A DNA stretch of 37,324 nt from a virus: positions 1 to 37,324 of IMG/VR virus record IMGVR_UViG_3300020281_000060; one strand, 5' to 3'. A model generated the notes under the pieces. The model saw only the letters and a list, made by a program, of their open reading frames with translations, ran no database searches and was not told the origin of the DNA. This document shows positions 19,371-35,124 of this stretch, piece after piece (positions within the stretch are counted from its first letter, which is position 1; every line of letters starts with the position of its first letter). The position numbers were made by a program, and so were the translations under genes.

Positions 19371-19514
19371 AGGGGACTATTTTCTACCTGGGAAATTTTT
19401 TGTATATAGACTTGCACGAACAATCGAATTATATCTACCCCTCTGGGATACTTTTATAGCTTAGTCATTAGGAACCCTTTTATATTAGCGCACCCATTAA
19501 ATATCAACAAATAT
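19371..19514 (-). promoter_or_regulatory. Upstream region of the late block with candidate promoter
   Basis: No gene is visible. On the minus strand a TATAAT lies at 19428-19433, about 57 nt before the 226-aa gene, and a TATAAAAG-like sequence near 19452-19459 resembles a degenerate late box (6 of 8 positions). I see no strict NATAAATA box and no CAACCACA leader, so the control of this gene differs from the early operons. Confidence 0.35.
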
Positions 19515-21383: not shown

Positions 21384-21432
21384 TGTGGTTGAAATTGTGG
21401 GGAATCTCTCTCCCTCGTATATATTAATTGTA
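21384..21432 (-). promoter_or_regulatory. Promoter and CAACCACA leader A
   Basis: CAACCACA (21384-21391) is two bases before the ATG at 21381. A TACAAT box lies at 21427-21432 (an alternative TATGAT overlaps it). The -10 to leader distance, 35 nt, is longer than at the other copies. The 41-bp repeat lies 13 nt upstream of TACAAT, exactly as at leader B. Confidence 0.6.
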
Positions 21433-21445
21433 TCATAAAAAATGC

Positions 21446-21486
21446 CGATTTGGGGCATGTTTTCTGGTGCGGTAGTCCACTAATAA
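21446..21486 (-). repeat. 41-bp direct repeat, copy 1 (upstream promoter element)
   Basis: Identical over 41 bases to 22262-22302. Both copies lie between genes, in the same orientation, and end 13 nt from the -10 box of a leader-bearing operon. This suggests a shared regulator or RNA polymerase contact site. Confidence 0.85.
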
Positions 21487-21491
21487 TATTG

Positions 21492-21526
21492 TCACAAGGA
21501 AAGGTGTTAAACTTCCTTTCCTGTGA
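21492..21526 (-). terminator. Hairpin spanning the stop codon of the 66-aa gene
   Basis: TCACAGGAAAGG pairs with CCTTTCCTTGTGA with one bulged base, giving about 12 pairs. The TAA stop of the gene at 21507 lies in the loop. It is the strongest of the stop-spanning hairpins and separates operon B from promoter A. Confidence 0.65.
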
Positions 21527-21707
21527 TAATAAATTGGTATTCGTTATAATCCAATTCTCTGGGTAATCCTTCGCCTACTGGTGGATATAATCGAACTGTG
21601 GCGGGATAGTATCCAAACGTTGAAAAATGGTCGTTTGCATATTCTTCGATTAGATGCCTTACTGGTTCAAATATCTTGTAATATTCGGGTTCTCTCCTTA
21701 ATCCCAT
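21507..21707 (-). CDS. Hypothetical protein (66 aa)
   Basis: Small basic-acidic mixed protein (LRREPEYYKIFEPVRHLIEE, then FGYYPATVRLYPPVGEGLPR). No known family. It overlaps the upstream 60-aa gene by 10 nt, and its stop codon lies in the loop of a strong hairpin. Last gene of operon B. Confidence 0.65.
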   Translation of the reverse strand: MGLRREPEYYKIFEPVRHLIEEYANDHFSTFGYYPATVRLYPPVGEGLPRELDYNEYQFIITGKEV

Positions 21708-21880
21708 AAATCCTCCTCCTGCTCTTCTAATTCCTTACTTGCCATTGTAAAAAAGTCTCTAATGGTCATGTCTGGATATTGAAGTAAGTAAGAACACAAT
21801 GCACCCATCTGCATGTGTCTTGACTCTGCCATGTGGATTTGCTCCATAACTTGCATTGCGTCATATTCTAAATCTGACAT
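21698..21880 (-). CDS. Hypothetical acidic helical protein (60 aa)
   Basis: Helical and acidic, with several Met residues (AMQVMEQIHMAESRHMQMGA) and the C-terminus KELEEQEEDLWD. No known family. The start overlaps the stop of the 109-aa gene (TAATG), so it is translated with that gene. Confidence 0.65.
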   Translation of the reverse strand: MSDLEYDAMQVMEQIHMAESRHMQMGALCSYLLQYPDMTIRDFFTMASKELEEQEEDLWD

Positions 21881-22209
21881 TATGCAACCTCCATACCGTT
21901 AACAAAAGGAATCTTAGTTCCTGCAAAGTTGACTAAGTACCAAGTCCAATCTCTCTGAATGACCTTAAATCCAGTTGCGAACTCATCACAAAGTGCATTA
22001 AGTCTGGATTTGGTGGTTACAGTTTGCCAACCACCATCAAATAGAAATAGTTTCTGATTGACATGATCGAATGTTGCAATGTGGTTTCCATGTAGAAATA
22101 CCTCTGACTCTAAACCATTGTCTGATGTTAGAACTGATGTATTGGAATTTGACCAGTTATGCTGAGTGCGAATCATGTAGTTCATTGACTTTTCAATCTT
22201 TCTTGTCAT
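21880..22209 (-). CDS. Conserved phage protein of unknown function (109 aa)
   Basis: I recall its pattern from many marine phages: NWSNSNTSV, SEVFLHGNHIATFD, then FDGGWQTVTTKSRLNALCDE. The conserved 'LHGN-IA' and 'GWQT-TTKSRLNAL' stretches suggest a small beta-helical fold of unknown role. First gene of operon B, with ATG 14 nt after a CAACCACA leader and an AGAGGAA ribosome-binding site between them. Confidence 0.75.
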   Translation of the reverse strand: MTRKIEKSMNYMIRTQHNWSNSNTSVLTSDNGLESEVFLHGNHIATFDHVNQKLFLFDGGWQTVTTKSRLNALCDEFATGFKVIQRDWTWYLVNFAGTKIPFVNGMEVA

Positions 22210-22223
22210 TTTAAAAATTCCTC

Positions 22224-22248
22224 TGTGGTTGTGTATGTATTAATGATA
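22224..22248 (-). promoter_or_regulatory. Promoter and CAACCACA leader B
   Basis: TATCAT (-10, 22243-22248, preceded by TGC like an extended -10) is 11 nt from CAACCACA (22224-22231), which merges into AGAGGAA and the ATG at 22209. The second copy of the 41-bp repeat lies 13 nt upstream. Confidence 0.7.
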
Positions 22249-22261
22249 GCATGAATTAGGT

Positions 22262-22302
22262 CGATTTGGGGCATGTTTTCTGGTGCGGTAGTCCACTAAT
22301 AA
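22262..22302 (-). repeat. 41-bp direct repeat, copy 2
   Basis: Identical to 21446-21486. It lies upstream of the -10 box of operon B. The flanking bases differ on both sides, so identity is confined to this block and the similarity is not a larger recent duplication. Confidence 0.85.
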
Positions 22303-22315
22303 AACTGTCCACTCC

Positions 22316-22486
22316 CTATTCATATTTGCTTGCAATAGTGCCTGTTTTGTGGTAAGTGTTCCATATACCCATGAGTTCGTCATATTGCTCTGTTGTATAT
22401 GCTCTGCGATCCTCTGGGATGAAATCTGACCACTCTACTCCCTCAAATTTGATTTCGAGGGATGTTCCATTAAATCTTACTTTCAT
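22316..22486 (-). CDS. Hypothetical protein (56 aa)
   Basis: It starts MKVRFNGTSLEIKFEGVEWS and continues DFIPEDRRAYTTEQYDELMG. A clear AAGGAG ribosome-binding site lies nine bases before the ATG. No known family; an N-terminal beta hairpin followed by helices is likely. Second and last gene of operon C. Confidence 0.75.
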   Translation of the reverse strand: MKVRFNGTSLEIKFEGVEWSDFIPEDRRAYTTEQYDELMGIWNTYHKTGTIASKYE

Positions 22487-22498
22487 TGTTATTTCTCC

Positions 22499-22867
22499 TT
22501 AGTACTGAGCAAGTGACTTTTTATCCACGTTGATAACCAAGAATCCCTGCTTTCTCAACATATTTCTGTATCTTGTTATCTGTGTCTCGTTGAAAGACTC
22601 TTCTGCTCCTGCTCTGTCCATCATTGCGATATAGGTAACAGGTGCTTTTTTGGTGTTATCCATAATTATTTCCTGATACTCTCTCTGGTTCAAATCTAAC
22701 TTTCTCTTATCGTAGAAAACTTTACCTATGATTTCAGAATGACATATAATATTTGAGTAACCTGACTCATGTACATAATGAACTGACATCCAATTTTTCC
22801 AATCGCCTGTTCCGTACTCGTTGATTGCGTCAACTACTAATTTCTGGTAAGTGTCTAATTTTGCCAT
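22499..22867 (-). CDS. Hypothetical protein (122 aa), first gene of operon C
   Basis: Mixed alpha/beta sequence without a motif I can name. The C-terminal part (NETQITRYRNMLRKQGFLVI, then NVDKKS) looks like a helix-strand unit. The ATG lies ten bases after CAACCACA, with a GGA between. The next gene follows after 12 bases. Confidence 0.75.
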   Translation of the reverse strand: MAKLDTYQKLVVDAINEYGTGDWKNWMSVHYVHESGYSNIICHSEIIGKVFYDKRKLDLNQREYQEIIMDNTKKAPVTYIAMMDRAGAEESFNETQITRYRNMLRKQGFLVINVDKKSLAQY

Positions 22868-22877
22868 GTGTGAATCC

Positions 22878-22900
22878 TGTGGTTGTTATACTCTATTATA
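22878..22900 (-). promoter_or_regulatory. Promoter and CAACCACA leader C
   Basis: A perfect TATAAT (22895-22900) is nine nt before CAACCACA (22878-22885). The transcript would therefore start at or just before the leader. No good -35 hexamer is seen. Confidence 0.7.
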
Positions 22901-22940
22901 AACATATAAAACCAGAAAAAGAGACCTATCATGTGTAGGT

Positions 22941-22974
22941 AATAAAACTGTCACAACCACATAACAATTTTATT
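22941..22974 (-). terminator. Hairpin with the stop codon in its 5' arm
   Basis: AATAAAATTG and CAGTTTTATT pair over ten positions (one G-U). The TAA stop of the open frame at 22970 lies in the 5' arm. The loop contains GTGGTTGTGA. It separates operon D from promoter C. Confidence 0.5.
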
Positions 22975-23104
22975 CCTTTTTATGATAGGTCTTTCTGATA
23001 GTGGACTTACATAAGGATGCAACTGCCATTAGACCATACCTTTCGGATTTACTGGAATTGTAAGAGATCACCCTTACTGGTGTTTTAAAGTTCGTTCGCT
23101 TAAT
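22970..23104 (-). CDS. Possible small basic protein with a non-ATG start
   Basis: An open frame follows the 88-aa gene with operon-like spacing but has no ATG at its beginning. Possible starts are ATT at 23104 (12 nt after the upstream stop) or GTG at 23071. The product is basic (KRTNFKTPVRV, YNSSKSERYGLMAVASLCKS, RKTYHKKE). Support is indirect: the frame is open, and its stop sits in a hairpin as at other operon ends. It may instead be non-coding. Confidence 0.35.
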   Translation of the reverse strand: MKRTNFKTPVRVISYNSSKSERYGLMAVASLCKSTIRKTYHKKE

Positions 23105-23115
23105 GCCACTTGATC

Positions 23116-23382
23116 TTATTTCTGATTGTATAGTTTCAATAAATCTGATTCGTATTGTTCCCTGATATGATTATCAGTTACGAGATCATCAAAACGTTCA
23201 ATAACTTCAATCTGTGTGAAGTCATCACATACTACCGCCTGATCTGGGTAAGAATGATTTGGATGAATGATTGTAATTTTTCCTTCATCCCTGATAATTA
23301 CTTCACCTTTGTAACCATTATATGTTACATAATCACCAACAGTAATTTCATTAAATGTTTGGTATCTGCTCTTATTTAACAT
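23116..23382 (-). CDS. Small SH3/KOW-like protein (88 aa)
   Basis: EITVGDYVTYNGYKGEVIIR followed by EGKITIIHP looks like an SH3-like beta barrel of KOW type, with a helical acidic end (REQYESDLLKLYNQ). The ATG at 23382 (MLNKSRYQTF) is chosen because a separate 39-aa gene occupies the sequence upstream; the longer frame from 23424 would overlap it almost completely. Confidence 0.65.
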   Translation of the reverse strand: MLNKSRYQTFNEITVGDYVTYNGYKGEVIIRDEGKITIIHPNHSYPDQAVVCDDFTQIEVIERFDDLVTDNHIREQYESDLLKLYNQK

Positions 23383-23491
23383 TGTCTTTTGCCTTTCGTT
23401 GTTTAATAAGTTTAACTCTCTCATTATGAGTTAATTTAGGATTCCATAAAATCTTCCTTAGATCATTATATTCTGTGAATTGTTTACACAT
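23372..23491 (-). CDS. Basic microprotein (39 aa)
   Basis: It starts MCKQFTEYNDLRKILWNPKL and ends RVKLIKQRKAKDNVK. The start overlaps the stop of the 79-aa gene (TAATG), and its end overlaps the ATG of the 88-aa gene by 11 nt. These overlaps match the coupling seen across this region. No family known. Confidence 0.55.
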   Translation of the reverse strand: MCKQFTEYNDLRKILWNPKLTHNERVKLIKQRKAKDNVK

Positions 23492-23730
23492 TAGTCGATT
23501 TCCTCACTAATAAGATATGCAATGAAATTGTTATGTTCTGACCAATCTTGATTATAGAATTGATCTAAAACCGCTTGGGTGATCTCTGGTTTAGCATCTT
23601 CTTTAATTGATGCGAACTCTTCATAGGTGTCCATGACATGTTCAATATCTGCTTTAACATCAACAAATTCAGTTAAAAAGCGGATACGGTCAGGGCATAG
23701 TTCCAACCAATCTTCAAATGAAATATTCAT
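23491..23730 (-). CDS. Acidic hypothetical protein (79 aa)
   Basis: Helical acidic protein (DWLELCPDRIRFLTEFVDVK, then EHVMDTYEEFASIKEDAK). No known family. It overlaps the 58-aa gene upstream by four bases (ATGA type) and the 39-aa gene downstream by one. Part of operon D. Confidence 0.7.
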   Translation of the reverse strand: MNISFEDWLELCPDRIRFLTEFVDVKADIEHVMDTYEEFASIKEDAKPEITQAVLDQFYNQDWSEHNNFIAYLISEEID

Positions 23731-23903
23731 GATGCTTTACCCATAGTGTAAACAACTTTACCATCTACATTATCAGTTACAAATGAATAACCATAATCAC
23801 ATCCCATTTCAAAACAAAAATCCTCTGCTGATTGTCTGTCTTGGGTGTGTGTCTGATTATTGAAAAAACTCGGTGTTGTAATTGTGTATTTAAACTGAGT
23901 CAT
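23727..23903 (-). CDS. Hypothetical protein (58 aa), first gene of operon D
   Basis: It starts MTQFKYTITTPSFFNNQTHT and has AEDFCFEMGCDYGYSFV. It has a plausible short beta-alpha-beta fold but no known family. The longer frame from 24020 is rejected because its extra part would run through the promoter, the leader and the end of the previous operon. ATG 23903 is five bases after CAACCACA with an AGGA ribosome-binding site. Confidence 0.65.
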   Translation of the reverse strand: MTQFKYTITTPSFFNNQTHTQDRQSAEDFCFEMGCDYGYSFVTDNVDGKVVYTMGKAS

Positions 23904-23908
23904 AATCC

Positions 23909-23934
23909 TGTGGTTGAATGATGTAATAATTTTA
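23909..23934 (-). promoter_or_regulatory. Promoter and CAACCACA leader D
   Basis: TAAAAT (23929-23934) is 12 nt before CAACCACA (23909-23916). A GCCCATTTTGCCC element lies about 10 nt further upstream; a similar TGCCCATTTTGCC occurs near 35038-35050. Confidence 0.6.
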
Positions 23935-23981
23935 GCGAACAATAAGGGCAAAATGGGCGGTGAGTGGGCGATATTATTAGT

Positions 23982-23999
23982 GTCACACAAACTGTTGAC
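23982..23999 (-). terminator. Small hairpin with a stop codon in its 3' arm
   Basis: GTCA-A-CA and TG-TGAC form six pairs with one bulge. The TGA stop of the 57-aa gene is in the 3' arm. Modest on its own, but it matches the other operon ends. Confidence 0.4.
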
Positions 24000-24156
24000 T
24001 TGTCTCACCTGTCTCATCAATAATTGAACCTCTTAGTTCAAAATCAAACGTATCAAGATCAAATCCTGCTCTTGCTACTACCTCAACTAAGAGATCAACA
24101 ACTGTTTGTCTCTCGTCAGCATTCATATAATCATATATTTCAAATGTTTTAATCAT
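23983..24156 (-). CDS. Acidic hypothetical protein (57 aa)
   Basis: It starts MIKTFEIYDYMNADERQTVV and includes DLLVEVVARAGFDLDTFDFE. A short helical acidic protein with no known family. The start overlaps the stop of the 42-aa gene (ATGA). Last gene of operon E. Confidence 0.65.
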   Translation of the reverse strand: MIKTFEIYDYMNADERQTVVDLLVEVVARAGFDLDTFDFELRGSIIDETGETSQQFV

Positions 24157-24281
24157 TGTAGTAAATCCTCAAATAGTTGTTTAGTTAGTTCGATTTGCTC
24201 CTCTTCTGTAAGATTTGGATGCTCTTCTTGTACTTGTTCATATAGTGATTCAAGTAATGCTTCGTTATTGATGTTGCTCAT
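24153..24281 (-). CDS. Acidic microprotein (42 aa)
   Basis: It starts MSNINNEALLESLYEQVQEE and ends EEEQIELTKQLFEDLLQ. Wholly helical and acidic. It resembles the 'EE-QIEL-xxL' part of the DUF7417-like gene at 19558, so it could be a distant relative. ATGA overlaps on both ends show coupled translation. Confidence 0.6.
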   Translation of the reverse strand: MSNINNEALLESLYEQVQEEHPNLTEEEQIELTKQLFEDLLQ

Positions 24282-24442
24282 GAGTTCACCTCCATTGCTA
24301 GTGCTTCGGGTGAATCAAATGCCTTCTCAAATAGTGAATCAAATGCCTTCTGGTCATCTTCCATTGAATCGGGAAGTCCTATCTCATATACAAATAGTAA
24401 GACATTTTGTAATGCGTGTAACTCGTCTCTGTTTAGTTTCAT
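24278..24442 (-). CDS. Acidic hypothetical protein (54 aa), first gene of operon E
   Basis: It starts MKLNRDELHALQNVLLFVYE. An internal duplication is visible: KAFDSLFE is followed at once by KAFDSPEA, also as a short repeat in the DNA. ATG lies five bases after CAACCACA, and the stop overlaps the next ATG. Function unknown. Confidence 0.65.
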   Translation of the reverse strand: MKLNRDELHALQNVLLFVYEIGLPDSMEDDQKAFDSLFEKAFDSPEALAMEVNS

Positions 24443-24447
24443 GTCTC

Positions 24448-24471
24448 TGTGGTTGCTTATACTTAATTATA
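24448..24471 (-). promoter_or_regulatory. Promoter and CAACCACA leader E
   Basis: TATAAT (24466-24471) is ten nt before CAACCACA (24448-24455). TTTTGCCCT directly precedes the -10 box and recurs upstream of promoter D. Confidence 0.7.
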
Positions 24472-24501
24472 AGGGCAAAAGTGGCAATTTAGAGCATATA
24501 T

Positions 24502-24525
24502 TGTGCAACTGTTTGTACTGTCACA
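24502..24525 (-). terminator. Hairpin immediately after the 88-aa gene stop
   Basis: TGTG-A-CAG pairs with TTGCACA, giving seven pairs with one bulged A. It begins at the base after the TAG stop. It separates operon F from promoter E. Confidence 0.45.
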
Positions 24526-24792
24526 CTACTCTACACCTATTTCATCTAGTGCTGACATGATACGATTAGTTCTATCGATTAATGCCTGCCTGCACTCTAT
24601 CAAGTCCTGATCTGATAGTTCCCTGAGTGAACAATTTAGTTCCTCTGCTTCATTCCATGCTTCTTCTATAAGGATAGGGTTGCTTCCATCACTATATGAT
24701 TGAATTCTCTCGATTACTTCGAGATCATCAAAATCTCTGTTTATAGCATTGTCTCCGAATGCTATTTCATAAATCTCTTCCTTGAAATCCAT
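24526..24792 (-). CDS. Acidic hypothetical protein (88 aa)
   Basis: Helical protein (DFDDLEVIERIQSYSDGSNP, then LDEIGVE at the end). No known family. The start overlaps the stop of the 67-aa gene (TAATG). Last gene of operon F; the stop touches a hairpin. Confidence 0.7.
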   Translation of the reverse strand: MDFKEEIYEIAFGDNAINRDFDDLEVIERIQSYSDGSNPILIEEAWNEAEELNCSLRELSDQDLIECRQALIDRTNRIMSALDEIGVE

Positions 24793-24995
24793 TATTTAAA
24801 CTCCTCGTAGTTTTTGGTTAATGCTGTTGGTAGTGATACTTTATCACCTAATTGTATTCTTAAAGAATAATATGCTGATACTATGTCTCTGTGTACATAC
24901 CTATCAAGATCGGGATAACCTTCAAATTCATCCGCTATCCACTCGATTGACTCTATAATCTCTCGTACCTGATTAATTGGTAATTCTATCTTCAT
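24792..24995 (-). CDS. Hypothetical protein (67 aa)
   Basis: It starts MKIELPINQVREIIESIEWI. The ATG at 24995 is chosen because it overlaps the stop of the 54-aa gene (ATGA) and gives a natural start; the ATG at 25016 would add seven residues inside the upstream gene. A helical region SIEWIADEFEGYPDLDRYVH follows. Function unknown. Confidence 0.65.
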   Translation of the reverse strand: MKIELPINQVREIIESIEWIADEFEGYPDLDRYVHRDIVSAYYSLRIQLGDKVSLPTALTKNYEEFK

Positions 24996-25156
24996 GACAC
25001 ATACTCCGCTTGACATACTGCATCAAATAGATTGTCGAATGTCTGCATGTCCATGTCACCATTAGAATTAGCAACGATCTTTTCGCCATGCTCTGCGATC
25101 ATTAACCATAATAGGTTATACTGACCTGATGTTACTCGAATGTTTAAGTCTTTCAT
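24992..25156 (-). CDS. Hypothetical protein (54 aa), first gene of operon F
   Basis: It starts MKDLNIRVTSGQYNLLWLMI and continues AEHGEKIVANSNGDMDMQTF. No known family. The ATG overlaps the last base of CAACCACA, so the mRNA leader must be about as short as the motif plus a few bases. No Shine-Dalgarno sequence is seen. Confidence 0.65.
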   Translation of the reverse strand: MKDLNIRVTSGQYNLLWLMIAEHGEKIVANSNGDMDMQTFDNLFDAVCQAEYVS

Positions 25157-25177
25157 GTGGTTGAATTAACTATCTTA
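25156..25177 (-). promoter_or_regulatory. Promoter and CAACCACA leader F, overlapping the start codon
   Basis: CAACCACA (25156-25163) shares its last A with the ATG. A weak -10 (TAAGAT, 25172-25177, with TAATAT just upstream) is eight nt away. The leader must act without a separate ribosome-binding site here. Confidence 0.55.
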
Positions 25178-25215
25178 ATATTAATGGATAAGTTTAAAGA
25201 ATGGAAGTCAAAATA

Positions 25216-25233
25216 GACACCTATGATGCTGTC
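25216..25233 (-). terminator. Short stem around the stop codon of the 69-aa gene
   Basis: GACA and TGTC pair around a 10-nt loop that contains the TAG stop. Only four pairs are certain, so support comes mainly from its likeness to the other operon ends. Confidence 0.3.
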
Positions 25234-25430
25234 ACATAGTAACCATCATGTAATTCTGAGTGAACTACATTATACTCTTCACATGATGCTTCGATCTCAT
25301 AGTTGTAGATACCTTCATTCTGTTGTATCTCCTCTTCTATAAGTTCCATTGCTTCTTGTGGTGACTCTGCTTCAACTTCAACTGAGTATTCTATTTGCTT
25401 CGATACTAATACTCTATAAATCTGTTCCAT
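25221..25430 (-). CDS. Small protein, DpnD/PcfM-like (69 aa)
   Basis: YRVLVSKQIEYSVEVEAESP followed by QEAMELIEEEIQ has the pattern of the DpnD-PcfM family (a beta hairpin, then VEA-S-EEA and a helix). Those proteins are found on plasmids and phages and are of unclear function. Last gene of operon G. The family call is tentative. Confidence 0.6.
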   Translation of the reverse strand: MEQIYRVLVSKQIEYSVEVEAESPQEAMELIEEEIQQNEGIYNYEIEASCEEYNVVHSELHDGYYVTAS

Positions 25431-25432
25431 GA

Positions 25433-25696
25433 TTAAATCCTCTGTAAGTTGTAGTTCATGATCTCTTCATTATCATAATCAGAATCTCCTGATCTATACT
25501 TCTCTGGGTCTTTTAGAATCTCATCCCATGCAATTTCCATCAAGTCTCTATTCTCCCACGTTGAGAGATCGGACTCTTCTTCATCAAAATCATTCTCTTT
25601 ACAATACTGTTCCCAAAACTCATCAAATGAAATTTCAAAATTCTGGTAGTAGTCAGTTCTTGTTGTAAACTGCATAACATACTGTTGTTCAATCAT
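25433..25696 (-). CDS. Very acidic hypothetical protein (87 aa)
   Basis: Nearly a third of the residues are Asp or Glu (EQYCKENDFDEEESDLSTWE, then DPEKYRSGDSDYDNEEIM). No known family. Such charge suggests DNA mimicry or binding to a basic host protein; this is only inference. It overlaps the upstream gene by eight bases and lies two bases before the DpnD-like gene. Confidence 0.65.
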   Translation of the reverse strand: MIEQQYVMQFTTRTDYYQNFEISFDEFWEQYCKENDFDEEESDLSTWENRDLMEIAWDEILKDPEKYRSGDSDYDNEEIMNYNLQRI

Positions 25697-25904
25697 TTGT
25701 GTAATCCTCTATAATTTGGTTGAATGAATCTTCCCAATAGTTTTTCGCTTCATCTAGAAATTCTGCTTCGGGTAGTTCGCTTACATAATCCCACATGCTA
25801 TCGGTAACATATTGGACTAAGGTTTTAATGTCCATGTTGTCAACTATACTGGTAACATATAAGTCTTTAATGTTATCAAGTTGACTAGGTGATAATTCCT
25901 TCAT
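25689..25904 (-). CDS. Acidic helical protein (71 aa), paralog of the gene at 30055
   Basis: YVTSIVDNMDIKTLVQYVTD with SELPEAEFLDEA aligns with YINTLVDSMSMEDLQQYVAN and DTDLLNEF in the 72-aa gene at 30055. Both have V-D-x-M, L-x-QYV and a D/E-x-L-x-E motif at the same distances. Function unknown. It overlaps the membrane-protein gene upstream by an ATGA. Confidence 0.65.
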   Translation of the reverse strand: MKELSPSQLDNIKDLYVTSIVDNMDIKTLVQYVTDSMWDYVSELPEAEFLDEAKNYWEDSFNQIIEDYTND

Positions 25905-26056
25905 TTCTGGTTATCCTCATTGAATGGTGACTTGGCATATTTGACGTTTACAATGTAAACTGTTGCTAGTGCAACTGCTATACCCAAGAAACCCAACCAT
26001 AGGATAGGACTACGAGGAAAATCGTAGGTAGGAATAAGTGTGTTGACTTCATACAT
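25901..26056 (-). CDS. Single-pass membrane microprotein (51 aa)
   Basis: It starts MYEVNTLIPTYDFPRSP and has one clear membrane span (ILWLGFLGIAVALATVYIV), followed by a short polar end. A strong AAGGAG lies six bases before the ATG. With a periplasmic or cytoplasmic N-terminus of 17 residues, it probably sits in the host inner membrane. Second gene of operon G. Confidence 0.7.
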   Translation of the reverse strand: MYEVNTLIPTYDFPRSPILWLGFLGIAVALATVYIVNVKYAKSPFNEDNQK

Positions 26057-26066
26057 AATGGTCTCC

Positions 26067-26384
26067 TTAACAATAAAATGATGTTGGTCTTTTTTTGATC
26101 TTTGATTGATCTTTACGATATAATCCTAGTACCTCAAAATCTCTATCGAGACCAAAGGCGGACTCTTTTGCAACTGGTACACGTTGACGTTTTAATTCAA
26201 GTGATTCTTTTGTTAGTTCCTTGGTCTGTATATCCCTCTGAACCTTCTTGAATGCTCCTACAACTGCATCTTTACCATATCGCTCAAATGTCCATGTGTT
26301 ACCACTATTGGGTGTGTCTAGATCGCAATATGCCATGCCTAGTAGGTGAGCAATTAATCCTAATTCTCTGTTAGTAAATTCCAT
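26067..26384 (-). CDS. Hypothetical protein (105 aa), first gene of operon G
   Basis: The N-terminal part is helical (NRELGLIAHLLGMAYCDLDT) and the C-terminal part basic (ESLELKRQRVPVAKES and KDQSKIKKRP). The ATG directly follows CAACCACA with no gap. No known family. Confidence 0.7.
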   Translation of the reverse strand: MEFTNRELGLIAHLLGMAYCDLDTPNSGNTWTFERYGKDAVVGAFKKVQRDIQTKELTKESLELKRQRVPVAKESAFGLDRDFEVLGLYRKDQSKIKKRPTSFYC

Positions 26385-26392
26385 TGTGGTTG
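26385..26392 (-). promoter_or_regulatory. CAACCACA leader G, directly before the ATG
   Basis: The motif ends one base before the ATG at 26384. Only weak -10 candidates (CATTCT, TTTAAT) precede it, so expression may partly depend on read-through of the RNA element upstream. Confidence 0.55.
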
Positions 26393-26394
26393 AA

Positions 26395-26614
26395 TTAAAA
26401 AGAATGTGAAAGGCGGTCAGGCGGTGGCGAGTTGCGTTACTGACCTTTAATAATAATATGCTTGGATGATCTTCTAACGAACTGACTTGTCATTCATTAG
26501 TGGGGACTCTCACCTCCTCGGTTTTACACCTAATTAACCTAAAAGTATCGAGTACTTTATAGTGTGTGGGGTTTGTCAGATTTTGAAGTTAGTGTGAGTA
26601 ACTCCCTAACCTGA
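26395..26614 (-). ncRNA. Candidate structured non-coding RNA
   Basis: There is no credible gene between 26393 and 26659. The minus strand behind a TATAAT box (26622-26627) can form four good hairpins in order: GGAGUUA/UAACUUC (26585-26605), AAAGUA/UACUUU (26542-26558), CUAAUGAA-UGA/UCA-UUCGUUAG (26474-26500, 11 pairs with one bulge and one G-U) and GGUCAG/CUGACC (26415-26445), the last followed by a U-rich stretch like a terminator. Between hairpins two and three is a purine-rich GAGGAGGUGAGAG. An eight-codon frame (MNDKSVR) begins inside the third hairpin. It could be a regulatory RNA, a leader of operon G or an unrecognised ribo-element; I could not match it to a known class. Confidence 0.5.
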
Positions 26615-26630
26615 TATATCCATTATAGTC
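26612..26630 (-). promoter_or_regulatory. Promoter -10 region of the candidate RNA, identical to that of operon H
   Basis: Nineteen bases including TATAAT (26622-26627) are identical to 27679-27697, the -10 region of operon H. A TTGTAT lies 16 nt upstream of the -10 box. Here no CAACCACA follows, consistent with a non-coding transcript. Confidence 0.6.
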
Positions 26631-26659
26631 GAGTGGATGTCAAATACAATGGATAGTGT

Positions 26660-26677
26660 GACAATATTTTAATTGTC
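26660..26677 (-). terminator. Hairpin with the stop codon in its loop
   Basis: GACAAT and ATTGTC pair perfectly around a six-base loop holding the TAA stop of the 79-aa gene at 26669. It separates operon H from the candidate RNA promoter. Confidence 0.5.
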
Positions 26678-26908
26678 CTCATCTAGTTGAATATTGAACT
26701 CTTTTGAGATAGTGTCAAACAGTTCAGCATCCCATCCATCCATTTCTTCAAATACTGCTTGCTGTCCAGTATCTTGTCGGATGTTCTCAAAATCAATATG
26801 TGCCTGCTCTGAAATCAGTTCTCTCATTTGATCTGGTGATAGACTCCATACATAGTCTGCTACAAATTTTCTTACAACTTTATCGTATTCATTCATTGAT
26901 AGTTTCAT
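26669..26908 (-). CDS. Acidic hypothetical protein (79 aa)
   Basis: Helical acidic protein (YDKVVRKFVADYVWSLSPDQ, then MRELISEQAHIDFENIRQ). Its N-terminal half is loosely like the QYV paralogs at 25689 and 30055. Clear AAGGAGG site before the ATG, which directly follows the upstream stop. Last gene of operon H. Confidence 0.7.
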   Translation of the reverse strand: MKLSMNEYDKVVRKFVADYVWSLSPDQMRELISEQAHIDFENIRQDTGQQAVFEEMDGWDAELFDTISKEFNIQLDEDN

Positions 26909-27073
26909 TTAATAGTCCTCCTTTAAAAAACCGTACTTGTTATAAATTGCTGAATATTCCCTACCTAGTTTAACCGCATGTAGGTACTGCTCGAATGTTG
27001 GTATGGTGCGGTCATCATCATCACACCTCTTTAACCACTCTTCTTTATACTCTGAAAATGATACTGACATCAT
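26909..27073 (-). CDS. Hypothetical protein (54 aa)
   Basis: It starts MMSVSFSEYKEEWLKRCDDD and includes TFEQYLHAVKLGREYSAIYN. Helical, with no known family. Two consecutive ATGs are possible starts. It follows the nuclease-like gene by two bases and ends right at the next ATG. Confidence 0.65.
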   Translation of the reverse strand: MMSVSFSEYKEEWLKRCDDDDRTIPTFEQYLHAVKLGREYSAIYNKYGFLKEDY

Positions 27074-27075
27074 GA

Positions 27076-27666
27076 TTAAACCTCGAATACAAATGAATCT
27101 ACAAAACTAGGTGTGATTGTATTATAATCTTCGCTAGTCAATCCTGATCTTACATCATCAATAGTATAGAATAGATCAATAGATTGTACTTTGTTACCGT
27201 ACTGTCTCTTCAATACTGGTTTGATATTGGTTCTATCCTTCGCTGACTTGACGTCATCAAAACCTACAACTTCGCCTTTCTTGTTGAATCTAGGTGCTGT
27301 TCTAGGTAGTAATGAAACAAACAATATCTTTTCGATTGTCTCATTTACAACTGGTGCATAGAATAGTCTTGCTGCTTCACCGATTGTAGTGTTAGCATAG
27401 TTTTTGATATTCTTGTTAACGTTGCTGTTGATTGCCTTAGCAAGAATTGCATACTTGATATAACCGTTGTCATCAAGTCCTACAATATCAATATCAAATG
27501 TACCACCAAATGCGTCTTTTTGTAGTTTATACTCTTGTCTCCAATGTAGTGATGCTAGTTCTGGATAGGTTTCTAGGAACTGAGATAGCAATGCGTCATG
27601 CAACTGGTCAGTTCTCTTAGATGATCTAACATTCTGGAAACTTGTTTCTAGGAAATTGAAAATCAT
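27076..27666 (-). CDS. Conserved phage protein, possibly PD-(D/E)XK nuclease-like (196 aa)
   Basis: The core HWRQEYKLQKDAFGGTFDID followed by IVG and then YAILAKAINSNVNKNIKNYA resembles the E...D-x-D...x-x-K arrangement of the PD-(D/E)XK fold, with LAK where ExK is usual, so activity is uncertain. I recall homologs with 'KAPNSSVKQNxKNYxNT' in marine phages. The ATG at 27666 (MIFNFLETS) is chosen, seven bases after CAACCACA; the longer frame from 27732 would translate through the -10 box. First gene of operon H. Confidence 0.65.
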   Translation of the reverse strand: MIFNFLETSFQNVRSSKRTDQLHDALLSQFLETYPELASLHWRQEYKLQKDAFGGTFDIDIVGLDDNGYIKYAILAKAINSNVNKNIKNYANTTIGEAARLFYAPVVNETIEKILFVSLLPRTAPRFNKKGEVVGFDDVKSAKDRTNIKPVLKRQYGNKVQSIDLFYTIDDVRSGLTSEDYNTITPSFVDSFVFEV

Positions 27667-27672
27667 GTTATC

Positions 27673-27694
27673 TGTGGTTGATATATCCATTATA
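27673..27694 (-). promoter_or_regulatory. Promoter and CAACCACA leader H
   Basis: TATAAT (27689-27694) is eight nt before CAACCACA (27673-27680). The -10 region matches that of the candidate RNA over 19 bases. Confidence 0.7.
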
Positions 27695-27724
27695 GTCACA
27701 CGTCTATCACTTTTGTACAAACTG

Positions 27725-27748
27725 TGTGACACTTACATAGGTGTCACA
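27725..27748 (-). terminator. Perfect 8-bp hairpin with the stop codon in its loop
   Basis: TGTGACAC and GTGTCACA pair perfectly around an eight-base loop that holds the TAA stop of the oxygenase gene at 27733. Being a perfect palindrome, it could also be a protein-binding operator upstream of promoter H. Confidence 0.6.
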
Positions 27749-28302
27749 GCAAGGTTGAAACTGAGCGTTAATCTGTTATTATCAAATCTTTGAGTCTTTA
27801 CACCATGACGTACAAACGAGGGAAATAACAACAAATCGCCTTCTGTTATATCAGGTGTTAATATCTGATCTTGTTCAAATATATGTGTGTAACCTAGTAC
27901 TGTATGCTCTAAGTTTAAATTCTCAAAATAAAAGTTGGCATCTTCTCCCTTCTTATACTGTATGAATACTACACCACTAAAATTAATAAAGTCAGGGAAA
28001 TTTACATGATGATGTGGTTCTTGTGTGTGTCCACTATTATATAAGTTTAACCATGAGTTTATTAAATCTATGTTGCAATGTGTAGGGAAATATTGATACA
28101 AATAAGGTGCGAGGACTTTCCCTAGTTCATCAGGATTTACTACATCTTGCTCTTCAAAGTAAGTTGTATAAACACTACAATTCCATTTACCCTGAGCATC
28201 TTTGAGTAAATGTTTAGCACTTTCTAATAGTGAACCGAATAACTCTTTATGGTTATGTATCTTGCAATGGTAGTATTGTATAGGAAATAATGTATGTTTC
28301 AT
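27733..28302 (-). CDS. Putative 2OG/Fe(II)-dependent oxygenase (HxH type)
   Basis: The 189-aa protein has SWLNLYNSGHTQEPHHHVNF, then FINFSGVVFIQY, and near the end GDLLLFPSFVRHGVKTQRF and RLTLSFNLAV. Putative ligands are H-x-H in PHHHV and H in VRHGV; the final Arg contacts 2-oxoglutarate in known relatives. It aligns well with the gene at 31454 (both start with FPxxYYH and have NCSV near residue 40-50), so the two are paralogs. Last gene of the ten-gene operon I. Confidence 0.85.
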   Translation of the reverse strand: MKHTLFPIQYYHCKIHNHKELFGSLLESAKHLLKDAQGKWNCSVYTTYFEEQDVVNPDELGKVLAPYLYQYFPTHCNIDLINSWLNLYNSGHTQEPHHHVNFPDFINFSGVVFIQYKKGEDANFYFENLNLEHTVLGYTHIFEQDQILTPDITEGDLLLFPSFVRHGVKTQRFDNNRLTLSFNLAVTPM

Positions 28303-28403
28303 TAACCGTATAAGTGCATATTATAATGTTTACGAGTAGGTTTATACTTAACCTTCTTTACTCTAACAACTTTGAGTATCCTTAGTAGTGTATCTGTTTT
28401 CAA
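28302..28403 (-). CDS. Possible basic microprotein with TTG start (33 aa)
   Basis: The frame starts at TTG overlapping the TGA stop of the 72-aa gene, with AAGGGA five bases before it, and ends at a TAATG overlap with the oxygenase gene. The product is very basic (LLRILKVVRVKKVKYKPTRK). Coupling at both ends supports a real gene; no homolog is known to me. Confidence 0.45.
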   Translation of the reverse strand: MKTDTLLRILKVVRVKKVKYKPTRKHYNMHLYG

Positions 28404-28618
28404 AATCCCTTACCGCCTGATCTCTTGGGTTTAATGTCCAATACTTCTACATTCTCTATTAATTGATGTTTATGCCAATAGTTCTCTATAACATCATTAT
28501 AATCATATGTAATGATTGAACTACCATCTTTACAATTAATCTTATACTTATGCCTATCGTATTGTCCATCACTTGTTTTAGTGAAGTAATTATTCTCTTT
28601 GGATTCTGGTGTTATCAT
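28400..28618 (-). CDS. Small conserved cyanophage-type protein (72 aa)
   Basis: It has YKINCKDGSSIITYDYNDVI with ENYWHKHQ and the end VLDIKPKRSGGKGF. I recall short cyanophage proteins with the same 'DY-x-x-V...W...VLD...GGKGF' plan; the function is unknown. It overlaps the membrane microprotein gene by an ATGA. Confidence 0.7.
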   Translation of the reverse strand: MITPESKENNYFTKTSDGQYDRHKYKINCKDGSSIITYDYNDVIENYWHKHQLIENVEVLDIKPKRSGGKGF

Positions 28619-28767
28619 TGTTCCAACTGTTTTAATTGCTGTTGTAATAGTTCATTGCGTGTTCTAATACGCTCTTGTACACCTTCTCCTTTATGTAATT
28701 TCATAGTATTCTTAATTAATCCTAGAAATACAAATGCTATTAAGATGTATAAAAAATAGGGTCTCAT
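28615..28767 (-). CDS. Membrane-anchored coiled-coil microprotein (50 aa)
   Basis: It starts MRPYFLYILIAFVFLGLIKN, a membrane anchor, and continues with a Gln-rich helix (RIRTRNELLQQQLKQLEQ). It probably sits in the host inner membrane with the helix in the cytoplasm. ATGA overlaps with both neighbours. Confidence 0.7.
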   Translation of the reverse strand: MRPYFLYILIAFVFLGLIKNTMKLHKGEGVQERIRTRNELLQQQLKQLEQ

Positions 28768-28958
28768 TGGTCAAATCCTAACTCTTCTTGTAACCTATCT
28801 AGTTCTGCTGAACATTCGCCACACCGCCAACCTTCTACCTCGTCTCCGTAGTAAGCATAACGATTAACAAATCTTCCAGAACCCATGTGGCAAGGTTTTC
28901 CACAATCTACGCAAATTTCTGATTCAAATAGATTCATAGGTTGAATTACAACTTCCAT
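28764..28958 (-). CDS. Zinc-ribbon protein (64 aa)
   Basis: Two pairs of cysteines, CVDCGKPC and CGEC, are 25-30 residues apart, as in zinc ribbons. An acidic helix (SAELDRLQEELGF) follows. Such small zinc proteins often bind nucleic acids or polymerase, but nothing specific shows this here. Coupled to the next gene by an ATGA. Confidence 0.7.
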   Translation of the reverse strand: MEVVIQPMNLFESEICVDCGKPCHMGSGRFVNRYAYYGDEVEGWRCGECSAELDRLQEELGFDQ

Positions 28959-28976
28959 AATACTCCAATAATAATG

Positions 28977-29168
28977 TTAAGTCAAATTTTGTGTTAGTTT
29001 CTGAATAGTTCCAATAACTACGTCATTGAATACGTTTTCATCATGTGGTTCTACACCCATTAACAAGAAACCATAGGAACATAAGTCCTCTATATTTGAG
29101 AGTGATTGATCTCCACCTCTCATGATGTACTTATCGAATGTTTCGATTTTGATTTGATTACTGCTCAT
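28977..29168 (-). CDS. Hypothetical protein (63 aa)
   Basis: Sequence MSSNQIKIETFDKYIMRGGD followed by SNIEDLCSYGFLLMGVEP. No known family. Overlaps the 56-aa gene by 11 bases; an 18-base gap follows before the zinc-ribbon gene. Confidence 0.6.
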   Translation of the reverse strand: MSSNQIKIETFDKYIMRGGDQSLSNIEDLCSYGFLLMGVEPHDENVFNDVVIGTIQKLTQNLT

Positions 29169-29328
29169 AGTGGTTAGTGATAATGTCTTTTAATTCTTCG
29201 AGTTGATTACGCTCTAATAAATTGAACATGAACTCTATTAAGTCATGCTTTCCTGTTTCATAATCTTGACCTACAATATCATGTAGGTCATCTAATAGAT
29301 TTAGGTCAGATTGATTGTAGTTAATCAT
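29158..29328 (-). CDS. Acidic hypothetical protein (56 aa)
   Basis: It starts MINYNQSDLNLLDDLHDIVG and ends with FMFNLLERNQLEELKDI. A short helical acidic protein, no known family. Start overlaps the upstream stop (ATGA). Confidence 0.65.
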   Translation of the reverse strand: MINYNQSDLNLLDDLHDIVGQDYETGKHDLIEFMFNLLERNQLEELKDIITNHYEQ

Positions 29329-29555
29329 GTGTCCTCTTCTGGAACTTCAATATCATCATACACACGAACTGAGAGTTGTTCATTGTCTGATGTGACAATA
29401 TTATTTCTGTCCATTGCTTTACCAACAATTTCCCAGATTTGATGTACTTCTGCGTCATCTAAGAATGAAGTCATGTTATAATAAACTTCAACTTTACCAT
29501 CATAGGTACACTCTCCATAGGGATTCTCTTCTGGGTATTCCCATAGTCTAGTCAT
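29325..29555 (-). CDS. Acidic hypothetical protein (76 aa)
   Basis: A likely beta-alpha-beta fold (DGKVEVYYNMTSFLDDAEVH, then LSVRVYDDIEVPEED). No known family. It overlaps the neighbours by 8 and 4 bases. Confidence 0.65.
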   Translation of the reverse strand: MTRLWEYPEENPYGECTYDGKVEVYYNMTSFLDDAEVHQIWEIVGKAMDRNNIVTSDNEQLSVRVYDDIEVPEEDT

Positions 29556-29715
29556 GATCTATCTCCAATGAATCAATAAATGCTACACAATACTGTGTGA
29601 ATTTCTTAACATCAACAGGTGCAACTTTGTCATCTTCTTCTCCAATATAATAAAATTGGTTGTTGATGTTTGAAATCAAAGTTTCAAGTGCAACTTCGTT
29701 TTTAGTGTAACTCAT
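29548..29715 (-). CDS. Hypothetical protein (55 aa)
   Basis: It starts MSYTKNEVALETLISNINNQ and continues FYYIGEEDDKVAPVDVKKFT. No known family. The start overlaps the stop of the 97-aa gene (ATGA). Confidence 0.65.
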   Translation of the reverse strand: MSYTKNEVALETLISNINNQFYYIGEEDDKVAPVDVKKFTQYCVAFIDSLEIDHD

Positions 29716-30005
29716 AGTGCTAACTCCTTTAAATCTTGCTCTGTAATTCCCCTCTGTGGGTTGTAATTGATTGTCATGCCCATAACATCAGTTAAGATGT
29801 CTCTTACACGCTCTCTGTCGAGACTATCTCCGTCTCCCCATGTAACATTGTCATTCATGCTCTTGAAGTAGATAGCAGTTGCTTTGAAAATGTCTAACTT
29901 TGTTAGTCCTTCTATTGGGTATAGTGAGTCATCATCACTACCATAGAATGACCACACATAGTCAACGAAATCATCAAGTTGTCTTTTATGTGTGAGTGTG
30001 TCCAT
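29712..30005 (-). CDS. Hypothetical protein (97 aa), first gene of operon I
   Basis: It starts MDTLTHKRQLDDFVDYVWSF and includes RVRDILTDVMGMTINYNPQR. The ATG at 30005 is chosen, five bases after CAACCACA; the longer frame from 30032 would run through the leader and -10 box. No known family. It leads a run of ten coupled genes that ends with a 2OG oxygenase. Confidence 0.7.
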   Translation of the reverse strand: MDTLTHKRQLDDFVDYVWSFYGSDDDSLYPIEGLTKLDIFKATAIYFKSMNDNVTWGDGDSLDRERVRDILTDVMGMTINYNPQRGITEQDLKELAL

Positions 30006-30010
30006 GTCTT

Positions 30011-30036
30011 TGTGGTTGTAATATATTATCATTATA
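30011..30036 (-). promoter_or_regulatory. Promoter and CAACCACA leader I
   Basis: TATAAT (30031-30036) is 12 nt before CAACCACA (30011-30018). It controls the longest small-gene operon, ten genes from 30005 to 27733. Confidence 0.7.
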
Positions 30037-30054
30037 AAGGTATGATTCTAGAAT

Positions 30055-30273
30055 TTAAACAAGTAGTGTGCCACTTTTTAAACTGGTTACAAACTTATTA
30101 TAAAATTGTTCATCTGTGGTATGTTCTACCTTAATTAAAAATTCATTAAGTAAATCAGTATCATTTACATGATACAACCAACTTGCCATGTCATTTGCTA
30201 CATATTGTTGCAAATCTTCCATACTCATGCTATCAACGAGAGTATTAATATATGTCTCTTTTTTAACTGTCAT
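30055..30273 (-). CDS. Acidic helical protein (72 aa), paralog of the gene at 25689
   Basis: It shares the V-D-x-M, L-x-QYV and D-x-L-x-E pattern with the 71-aa gene at 25689 (here YINTLVDSMSMEDLQQYVAN). Function unknown. Last gene of operon J; overlaps the upstream gene by ATGA. Confidence 0.65.
   Translation of the reverse strand: MTVKKETYINTLVDSMSMEDLQQYVANDMASWLYHVNDTDLLNEFLIKVEHTTDEQFYNKFVTSLKSGTLLV
30061..30076 (-). terminator. Hairpin just before the stop codon of the 72-aa gene
   Basis: AAGTGG and CTACTT pair over six positions (one G-U) around a CACA loop. The TAA stop is three bases after the stem. It separates operon J from promoter I. Confidence 0.45.
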
Positions 30274-30509
30274 GATAAAACCCTATCATAGTTTTTCATC
30301 ATATCATAATCGTTGTTAGGGTCTTTATCTGCTTTATAACAGGCATCAAATACTTTGGTATAAACCAGATTTAATAGAATCTCTCTCCTGTCTGGGTTGA
30401 CATTGCCAGTAGTATTGAGTCTGGACTCTACCATAATCTCACTCTCTCCTTCTAATAGGATATTGAGTGCTGTAATTTCCATGTCATCTAGTGTGATTGT
30501 ATGCTTCAT
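30270..30509 (-). CDS. Hypothetical protein (79 aa)
   Basis: It starts MKHTITLDDMEITALNILLE and includes NPDRREILLNLVYTKVFDAC. The ATG at 30509 is preferred to that at 30518 because it overlaps the stop of the upstream gene (ATGA). No known family. Confidence 0.65.
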   Translation of the reverse strand: MKHTITLDDMEITALNILLEGESEIMVESRLNTTGNVNPDRREILLNLVYTKVFDACYKADKDPNNDYDMMKNYDRVLS

Positions 30510-30727
30510 GCTTCGCACCCCTGTTTGTAAATTTGATACTGTTGTTTTTCAAGTGATTCCATTGCTTGTTCTACCTCTGGAAATTCTAGGTCACACCCTG
30601 CTTCGGATATGTCTGTTAGTTTCCATTCTAGGTAGTACATAATATCATTGAGTTGTTCCCATGATAGTTTAATGTCAACTTCCTTACCTTGAAGTTTATG
30701 GAAGTCTCTTATGTCTGGGTACATCAT
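30506..30727 (-). CDS. Hypothetical protein (73 aa)
   Basis: DIKLSWEQLNDIMYYLEWKL is followed by a helical Glu/Gln-rich end. A 'beta strand, then long helices' plan typical of small phage proteins that bind host factors, but there is no specific match. Two ATGs in a row; the first overlaps the upstream stop. Confidence 0.65.
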   Translation of the reverse strand: MMYPDIRDFHKLQGKEVDIKLSWEQLNDIMYYLEWKLTDISEAGCDLEFPEVEQAMESLEKQQYQIYKQGCEA

Positions 30728-30855
30728 GATCTTGCACCTGTGTTGTAGAAACCTTCATTCAATATCTTTTCTGCTAACTCTTTTTGTTCTGGTGTCATGT
30801 AGATGTGATAATTCTTGAAAGCATCATACATGAGTTCAAATTCTTTTCTTGACAT
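30724..30855 (-). CDS. Microprotein (43 aa), first gene of operon J
   Basis: It starts MSRKEFELMYDAFKNYHIYM and continues TPEQKELAEKILNEGFYNTG. Two helices. The ATG is two bases after CAACCACA. No known family. Confidence 0.65.
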   Translation of the reverse strand: MSRKEFELMYDAFKNYHIYMTPEQKELAEKILNEGFYNTGARS

Positions 30856-30857
30856 AA

Positions 30858-30891
30858 TGTGGTTGAAATTGTTTGATAGTTCTATATTATA
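30858..30891 (-). promoter_or_regulatory. Promoter and CAACCACA leader J
   Basis: TATAAT (30886-30891) has a TTGTTG 17 nt upstream, a fair sigma70 pair. CAACCACA (30858-30865) is 20 nt further on, then ATG after two bases. Confidence 0.65.
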
Positions 30892-34938: not shown

Positions 34939-35051
34939 ATAGTTCTATTTAAACACAATTTCAAACAGTTTACCACACAAATAGTATAATAATACACTCT
35001 ATATTAGCATATACACACACAAATGTCTAGCAAAATAGGCAAAATGGGCAG
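34939..35051 (-). promoter_or_regulatory. Spacer between tRNA and the 65-aa gene, with a possible promoter
   Basis: The minus strand starts with TGCCCATTTTGCC, shared in part with promoter D, then GTGTGTGTATATGC and a TATTATTATACT stretch that could be a -10 box. No gene is seen. The tRNA could be matured from a transcript that also carries the 65-aa gene. Confidence 0.4.
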
Positions 35052-35124
35052 TAGGGGTAATTGGAATCGAACCAATCTCCTTTCTGTTATGAGCAGAGTG
35101 CATTCACCAGATTGCTATACCCCC
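35052..35124 (-). tRNA. tRNA with anticodon CAT (Met, or Ile after lysidine modification)
   Basis: A 73-nt cloverleaf folds on the minus strand. The acceptor stem is GGGGGTA/TACCCCT (seven pairs, first is G-U), the D arm GCA...TGC, the anticodon loop CTCATAA on a TCTG/CAGA stem, a five-base variable loop and the T arm ATTGG-TTCGATT-CCAAT. The discriminator is A, and CCA is not encoded. It lacks the three G-C pairs of an initiator anticodon stem, so it is elongator Met or Ile2. G1 is also the last base of the TAG stop of the oxygenase gene upstream. Confidence 0.9.

Follow-up and report, generated by a model that had tools for sequence, protein, structure and literature searches.

Early-gene control in T4-like phages and the locus studied

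In T4-like phages, regions of gene shuffling carry PeSL (promoter early-stem-loop) cassettes, in which a hairpin terminator stands before an early-type promoter. These units do not occur densely in S-PM2 (PMC4503421). Furthermore, marine T4-like cyanophages carry no alt, modA, modB, motA or asiA, and the control of their early genes is described as unclear (PMC2984593). Here we analyzed 37 kb of sequence from an uncultivated virus (IMG/VR record IMGVR_UViG_3300020281_000060; hereafter the window, i.e. the whole stretch of 37,324 nt) and an 8-nt sequence, CAACCACA, that heads its small-gene operons. The window is a fragment of a marine T4-like cyanophage (cyanomyovirus). As in S-PM2 and Syn9, which have sigma-70-type early promoters, TATAAT-like −10 boxes precede small early-type operons and NATAAATA boxes stand at structural genes. 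At 22878 and, less clearly, at 21384, the locus also resembles PeSL cassettes in the association of a terminator-like hairpin and an early-type promoter, but its conserved part is the 8-nt leader that follows the promoter. Repeated intergenic elements linked to promoters are likewise known within the genome of halovirus HF2 (PMC8707807); however, this is an archaeal virus, its repeats are 29-58 bp long and are not start-codon-linked leaders.

In the literature consulted, which did not include the Syn9 transcriptome and start sites of Doron et al. (2016) or the studies defining PeSL cassettes, we found no description of a shared transcribed leader at the early promoters of S-PM2 and Syn9; a prior report is possible, and the novelty of the general leader pattern is judged within this scope. 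As a text string, the 8-mer was found in unrelated texts only.

We favor, with a probability of about 55%, the reading that, within one cyanomyovirus clade, early mRNAs of small genes have CAACCACA as their common 5′ leader and that it acts in the RNA, in ribosome loading. A lineage-specific leader of small-gene operons provides a sequence handle on early-gene control in cyanophages, and in uncultured phages it offers a means of predicting where operons and genes start.

An 8-nt leader at the head of ten operons

On the minus strand, all ten small-gene operons of the 21.3-30.9 kb interval are headed by CAACCACA, at a distance of 14 to −1 nt from the first ATG (Table 1). An earlier reading of the DNA letters (hereafter the sequence-only reading) had listed ten minus-strand sites lying 0-14 nt from the first ATG, with one overlap; all its coordinates are exact and its distances agree with ours. 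The motif is in clear excess over shuffled sequence: the window contains 15 copies against 2.03 ± 1.45 in shuffles, and 0 of 100 shuffles reach 15. Ten minus-strand copies fall within 21.3-31.0 kb, versus two in the remaining 27.6 kb. The copies that are not leaders lie within genes (11894 and 33886 on the minus strand; 12516 and 17881 on the plus strand), except a plus-strand copy at 22954, which is the only intergenic one. The restriction to operon heads, also claimed previously, is real: exact CAACCACA precedes no internal operon gene of the window, the nearest approach being CTAACCACT-ATG at the gene starting at 29168. The sequence-only reading had proposed to look for enrichment near starts on both strands, which is not applicable here because all these operons lie on one strand.

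Table 1. Leaders and hairpin features of the small-gene region of the window
Feature	Position	Strand	First ATG	Gap to ATG (nt)	Upstream context	Remarks
Leader CAACCACA	30858..30865	-	30855	2	TATAAT 20 nt upstream	Same place in L002; CAACCACT in L003
Leader CAACCACA	30011..30018	-	30005	5	TATAAT 12 nt upstream	Kept in L002 and L003
Leader CAACCACA	27673..27680	-	27666	6	TATAAT 8 nt upstream	Kept in L002 and L003
Leader CAACCACA	26385..26392	-	26384	0 (directly adjoins)	Closes ~250-nt 5′ element	Other gene, same leader in sisters
Leader CAACCACA	25156..25163	-	25156	−1 (overlap)		CAACCACT in L002 and L003
Leader CAACCACA	24448..24455	-	24442	5	TATAAT 10 nt upstream	
Leader CAACCACA	23909..23916	-	23903	5	TAAAAT 12 nt upstream	Kept in homologues to 56% identity
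Leader CAACCACA	22878..22885	-	22867	10	TATAAT 9 nt upstream	Hairpin directly before
Leader CAACCACA	22224..22231	-	22209	14	TATCAT 11 nt upstream	
Leader CAACCACA	21384..21391	-	21381	2	TACAAT beyond ~25-nt insertion	Insertion not in sisters
Hairpin with U-rich tail	22908..22996	-				Predicted −32.5 kcal/mol; terminator and/or candidate small-RNA 3′ end
UGUGGUUG, exact leader complement	22954..22961	-				Hairpin tip; opening the 8 nt predicted to cost ~2.2 kcal/mol
Partly conserved intergenic stretch	22997..23110	-			Upstream of hairpin	From alignment; upstream sequence differs in sisters; possible small-RNA 5′ part

Promoter context

Five of the ten leaders have an exact TATAAT at 8-20 nt upstream (against 2.5% of random positions; p = 2e-6), and seven have, at the same distance, a box with at most one mismatch (p = 7e-5). 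The eight TATAAT-like boxes counted by the sequence-only reading were thus slightly generous, and its placement of the motif near the predicted mRNA 5′ end holds for most of the ten leaders. At 25156, TATTAA and TAAGAT are the only −10-like sequences, and no close −10 box was found at 26385, where the nearest good one is about 230 nt away, or at 21384, where the insertion separates the leader from its box while the leader remains beside the ATG. Two-hexamer sigma-70 sites (−35 and −10, 16-18 nt spacing) number 64, versus 49.5 ± 7.4 in shuffles; this enrichment is not clear and the promoter call therefore depends on the −10 box.

No late promoter of T4 type was found at the leaders, NATAAATA standing before other genes only: on the minus strand, these late-type boxes occur at 9819, 12304 and 17150, 18-28 nt before the ATG of structural genes. 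The leader motif sets the small-gene operons apart from these structural genes.

The proximity of the −10 box, 8-12 nt upstream of most leaders, would also be expected if the motif belonged to the early promoter as its downstream portion, i.e. an initial transcribed sequence through which the choice of start site, or the escape of the host polymerase from the promoter, is set. The near-fixed distance between −10 box and leader in S-SSM7 and S-RIM12 points in the same direction. However, in the window clade this spacing ranges from 8 to at least 35 nt and the link to the ATG is nevertheless retained; moreover, the −10 box and the spacer are much less conserved than CAACCACA. We therefore regard a transcription element as unlikely. 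The sequence-only reading had left the choice between a translation or stability signal and a transcription-start element; a role at the RNA level, linked to the start codon, fits better than the latter, because the motif stays at the ATG even where the promoter has moved away (21384 and 26385) and is far better conserved than the −10 box and spacer.

Conservation in sister contigs

The motif heads operons in four sister sequences (L002, L003, L018 and L025), and 30 leaders were compared across the clade. Their information profile shows a sharp block of eight bases, with G favored at the next position and poorly conserved flanks; three sister leaders have the variant CAACCACT. When homologous heads are compared, 3 of 152 sites (2%) differ within the motif and, in the preceding 14 nt, 96 of 266 (36%; p = 1e-18, for pairs that are not independent and flanks aligned without gaps). 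The leader is present even before another gene: in L002 (11615) and L003 (11174), the leader is followed by a gene without homology to that of the window at 26385 and ...AATTCAACCACA-ATG is still found. Copies fetched from elsewhere in the sister contigs, beyond their small-gene cluster, have a coding-type context and none precedes an operon head. Across the sequence collection, the pattern TATAAT-gap-CAACCACA-gap-ATG gave, among the matches listed, mostly single matches in unrelated contigs.

The same leader fronting different genes at 26385 could reflect mobile promoter cassettes, i.e. PeSL-like terminator-promoter units spread by recombination, in which the leader would be a hitchhiker or an exchange junction without a function of its own. 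Terminator-like hairpins followed by −10 boxes do occur in several cyanomyovirus intergenic regions, and repeats lie upstream of leaders near 21.45 and 22.3 kb. In the window, a terminator stem-loop that immediately precedes an early promoter is clear at 22878 and weaker at 21384, and it is not general among the ten heads. Hitchhiking predicts conserved flanks, but the 8-mer alone is conserved, and eight bases are very short for homologous exchange. This explanation is thus quite unlikely.

The repeat in question is a near-identical sequence of about 40 nt, ATTAGTGGACTACCGCACCAGAAAACATGCCCCAAATCG, found upstream of two heads (~21442-21490 and ~22270-22315, minus strand); related text, ACCAGAAAACACC, is present in sister contigs and in P-TIM68. 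In addition, the leader at 26385 is preceded by a 5′ element of about 250 nt (26393-26640, minus strand) with a conserved hairpin, GGTCAG-TAAYGCAACTCGCCACC-N2-CTGACC. This element is also found in L002 upstream of 11615, in L007 upstream of 19972 and in L188 (4799-4820), and its 3′ part in P-RSM6, upstream of a head with a different start-proximal leader. It has no Rfam match and is a candidate structured RNA.

Different leaders at the same place in other cyanomyoviruses

In the window, genes for a giant virion structural/baseplate protein and for gp6-like and gp25-like baseplate proteins are followed by the small-gene cluster, then by those for a DNA helicase and for phrog_274 and 2OG-oxygenase family proteins. 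The same gene order flanks the cluster in S-WAM1, P-RSM6, S-SSM7, P-SSM7, S-SSM4, P-TIM68 and S-RIM12, and much of it is retained in P-HM1. DNA similarity with the nearest cultured phages is limited to short stretches. The closest relatives of the window are the IMG/VR contigs 3300020367_000004 and 3300020419_000010 (94-96% identity for two proteins); one small early protein, used as a query, revealed no others.

The motif search in relatives suggested by the sequence-only reading succeeds in the sister contigs, which have CAACCACA at operon heads, but not in other cyanomyoviruses: none of nine cultured ones shows a concentration of CAACCACA in the small-gene region. Several other cyanomyoviruses carry shared leaders of their own between the −10 box and the ATG of their small-gene operons: ATAACAAACA in S-SSM7 (arranged as TATAAT-N5/6-ATAACAAACA), GAGTCAAAGG in Syn9 and S-RIM12, and GTAATCAAGG in P-TIM68. 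CAAAC leaders resembling that of S-SSM7 are found in P-SSM7, S-SSM4 and P-HM1. Furthermore, CTATAAGAGTCAAAGG is present in S-RIM12, in Syn9, which is of the S-RIM12 type, and at one S-WAM1 head, GTAATCAAGGAAT is the P-TIM68 leader and TATAGACACCTACGGA occurs at two P-RSM6 heads.

Operon heads of the other phages were defined by an intergenic gap of at least 35 nt. The top shared 7-mer of heads beats every shuffle in the window, S-SSM7 (9 of 24 heads, versus at most 5 in shuffles), P-TIM68, S-RIM12, P-SSM7 and S-SSM4, being the −10 box itself in P-SSM7 and S-RIM12. At the scale of whole genomes, 12 of the 13 forward leader copies of S-SSM7 lie at 38-52 kb, all five exact copies of S-RIM12 at 39.0-44.6 kb and 5 of 5 copies of P-TIM68 at 52-55 kb.

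P-TIM68 (L173) also has repeated promoter-leader cassettes of about 50 nt, TAAATGTTAGTTACCTCTAAATTGA...TTAATGTAATCAAGGAATTAAATT-ATG, before several small-gene operons (for instance, the heads at 19446, 20097, 21206, 21654 and 22124).

A probable role in ribosome loading

In the reading that we favor, CAACCACA would be the variant, proper to one clade, of a wider cyanomyovirus pattern with one leader per lineage across the operon heads of this region. The host RNA polymerase would start at the sigma-70-type −10 box, and the leader would usually lie within the first ~10 nt of the message, beside the first start codon; this transcript start and the early timing are suggested by the −10 box and the gene type. 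The A/C-only, unstructured leader RNA would then serve as a sequence-specific landing site that brings ribosomes to the first cistron largely independently of a Shine-Dalgarno sequence, and downstream cistrons would use ordinary Shine-Dalgarno sequences.

Shine-Dalgarno pairing is indeed weaker at the heads of the clade than at internal genes (p = 0.006): it is weaker than −4 kcal/mol at seven of the ten heads, −4.1 at two and −5.9 at 22224, whereas internal genes mostly pair more strongly (median about −5.8 kcal/mol). A leader acting as a Shine-Dalgarno sequence, by pairing to the 16S rRNA 3′ end, is thereby rejected for most of the ten heads. Predicted structure is also lower at heads (−1.1 versus −3.3 kcal/mol, p = 0.001). 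In both comparisons, the starts at 30005, 27666 and 23903 were offset by 1, 1 and 7 nt, with a small effect. A motif that tracks the start codon rather than the promoter, weak Shine-Dalgarno pairing, low structure and an A/C-only composition together point to a ribosome-loading role in the RNA and suggest an effect on translation.

Several points weigh against this reading. The clade is narrow (five contigs, all related). At the promoter-bearing heads of other cyanomyoviruses, taken together, the Shine-Dalgarno contrast is unclear (p = 0.15); absence of a Shine-Dalgarno sequence was therefore rejected as a rule for leader-bearing heads in all cyanomyoviruses, and the ribosome-loading step is proposed for the window clade, to which the contrast is confined. 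In P-HM1, S-WAM1 and P-RSM6, shared leaders are weak or few, and at least one shuffle matches or beats the top shared 7-mer. Finally, general ribosome loading need not require an exact 8-mer, hence the leader may have a specific partner. Pairing with 16S rRNA was judged unlikely as a general role of the leaders, since these differ between lineages.

Alternatively, the leader could be the operator of a phage RNA-binding protein, for instance the translational repressor RegA with lineage-specific specificity. In T4, some 30 mRNAs are bound by RegA at their AUG or immediately before it (PMC3014915), so that many early genes likewise share one type of start-codon signal, and cyanomyoviruses have regA (PMC2984593). 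However, the known T4 sites are A+U-rich and include the AUG, whereas CAACCACA is A/C-only and precedes it (PMC3014915). An operator of this kind is very doubtful.

A hairpin exposing the leader complement

Because of the plus-strand copy of CAACCACA at 22954, a minus-strand RNA would read UGUGGUUG there. This sequence forms the tip of a hairpin located between two operons, about 70 nt upstream of the leader at 22878. The leader could be the target of a small RNA that the phage would make from 22.9-23.1 kb and whose tip would pair with all ten start sites and silence or time the early operons; we hold this to be possible but rather doubtful. Trans-acting small RNAs near start sites, such as DicF on ftsZ (PMC12197685), likewise combine an exposed loop with short exact pairing by the start codon; in contrast, the window has a candidate small RNA only, with ten targets that share an identical site in its own genome.

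The exact 8-nt complement lies in the apical loop; about 0.008 such 8-mers are expected in the region's entire sense intergenic sequence. The tip sequence does not change across five clade members (the window, L042, L045, L018 and L025) while the arms of the outer stem changed together (AGACCUAUCAU/AUGAUAGGUCU in the window, AGACCUUACCAU/AUGGUGAGGUCU in sisters). In IMG/VR, the loop sequence occurs within this hairpin only in contigs that also carry leaders. Moreover, the predicted net pairing is −5.4 to −7.9 kcal/mol at each of the ten heads, and the raw duplex energy is far stronger at heads than at internal genes, although largely by construction. Such pairing would account for the conservation of exactly eight bases. 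On the other hand, the hairpin equally resembles an ordinary terminator, its conserved part reaches past the loop and only 4-6 loop bases are fully unpaired in the predicted fold. Pairing in cis of the loop with the downstream leader is absent from the minimum-energy fold of the read-through RNA. Furthermore, whole-genome counts gave no convincing intergenic antisense copy of the leader in S-SSM7, S-RIM12 or P-TIM68; therefore, a small RNA is not the general reason for shared leaders and would be a possibility specific to this clade. A plain terminator with a chance loop is possible. That a hairpin small RNA of a lytic cyanophage switches the whole early set (ten operons) by covering start sites seems improbable. 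The antisense hairpin opens the idea of a phage RNA regulon to direct test.

Other features of the region

The upper part of the hairpin, AAAAUUGUUAUGU (22940-22975, minus strand), shares 13 identical nt with the T4 RegA SELEX consensus aaAAUUGUUAUGUAA (PMC3014915), which may be a coincidence. The hairpin tip also contains a mini-ORF, ATG TGG TTG TGA. Upstream of the hairpin, GGTCTAATGGCAGTTGCATCCTTATGTAAGTCC (22997-23060, minus strand) resembles parts of the D-arm and anticodon arm of a tRNA and is possibly a degenerate tRNA. An Rfam scan of the window gave nothing at the leaders or the hairpin; its sole match was tRNA-Met, besides one sub-threshold match of plastid type on the opposite strand. 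The corresponding tRNA gene, with anticodon CAT, was found by both ARAGORN and Rfam at 35051-35124 on the minus strand.

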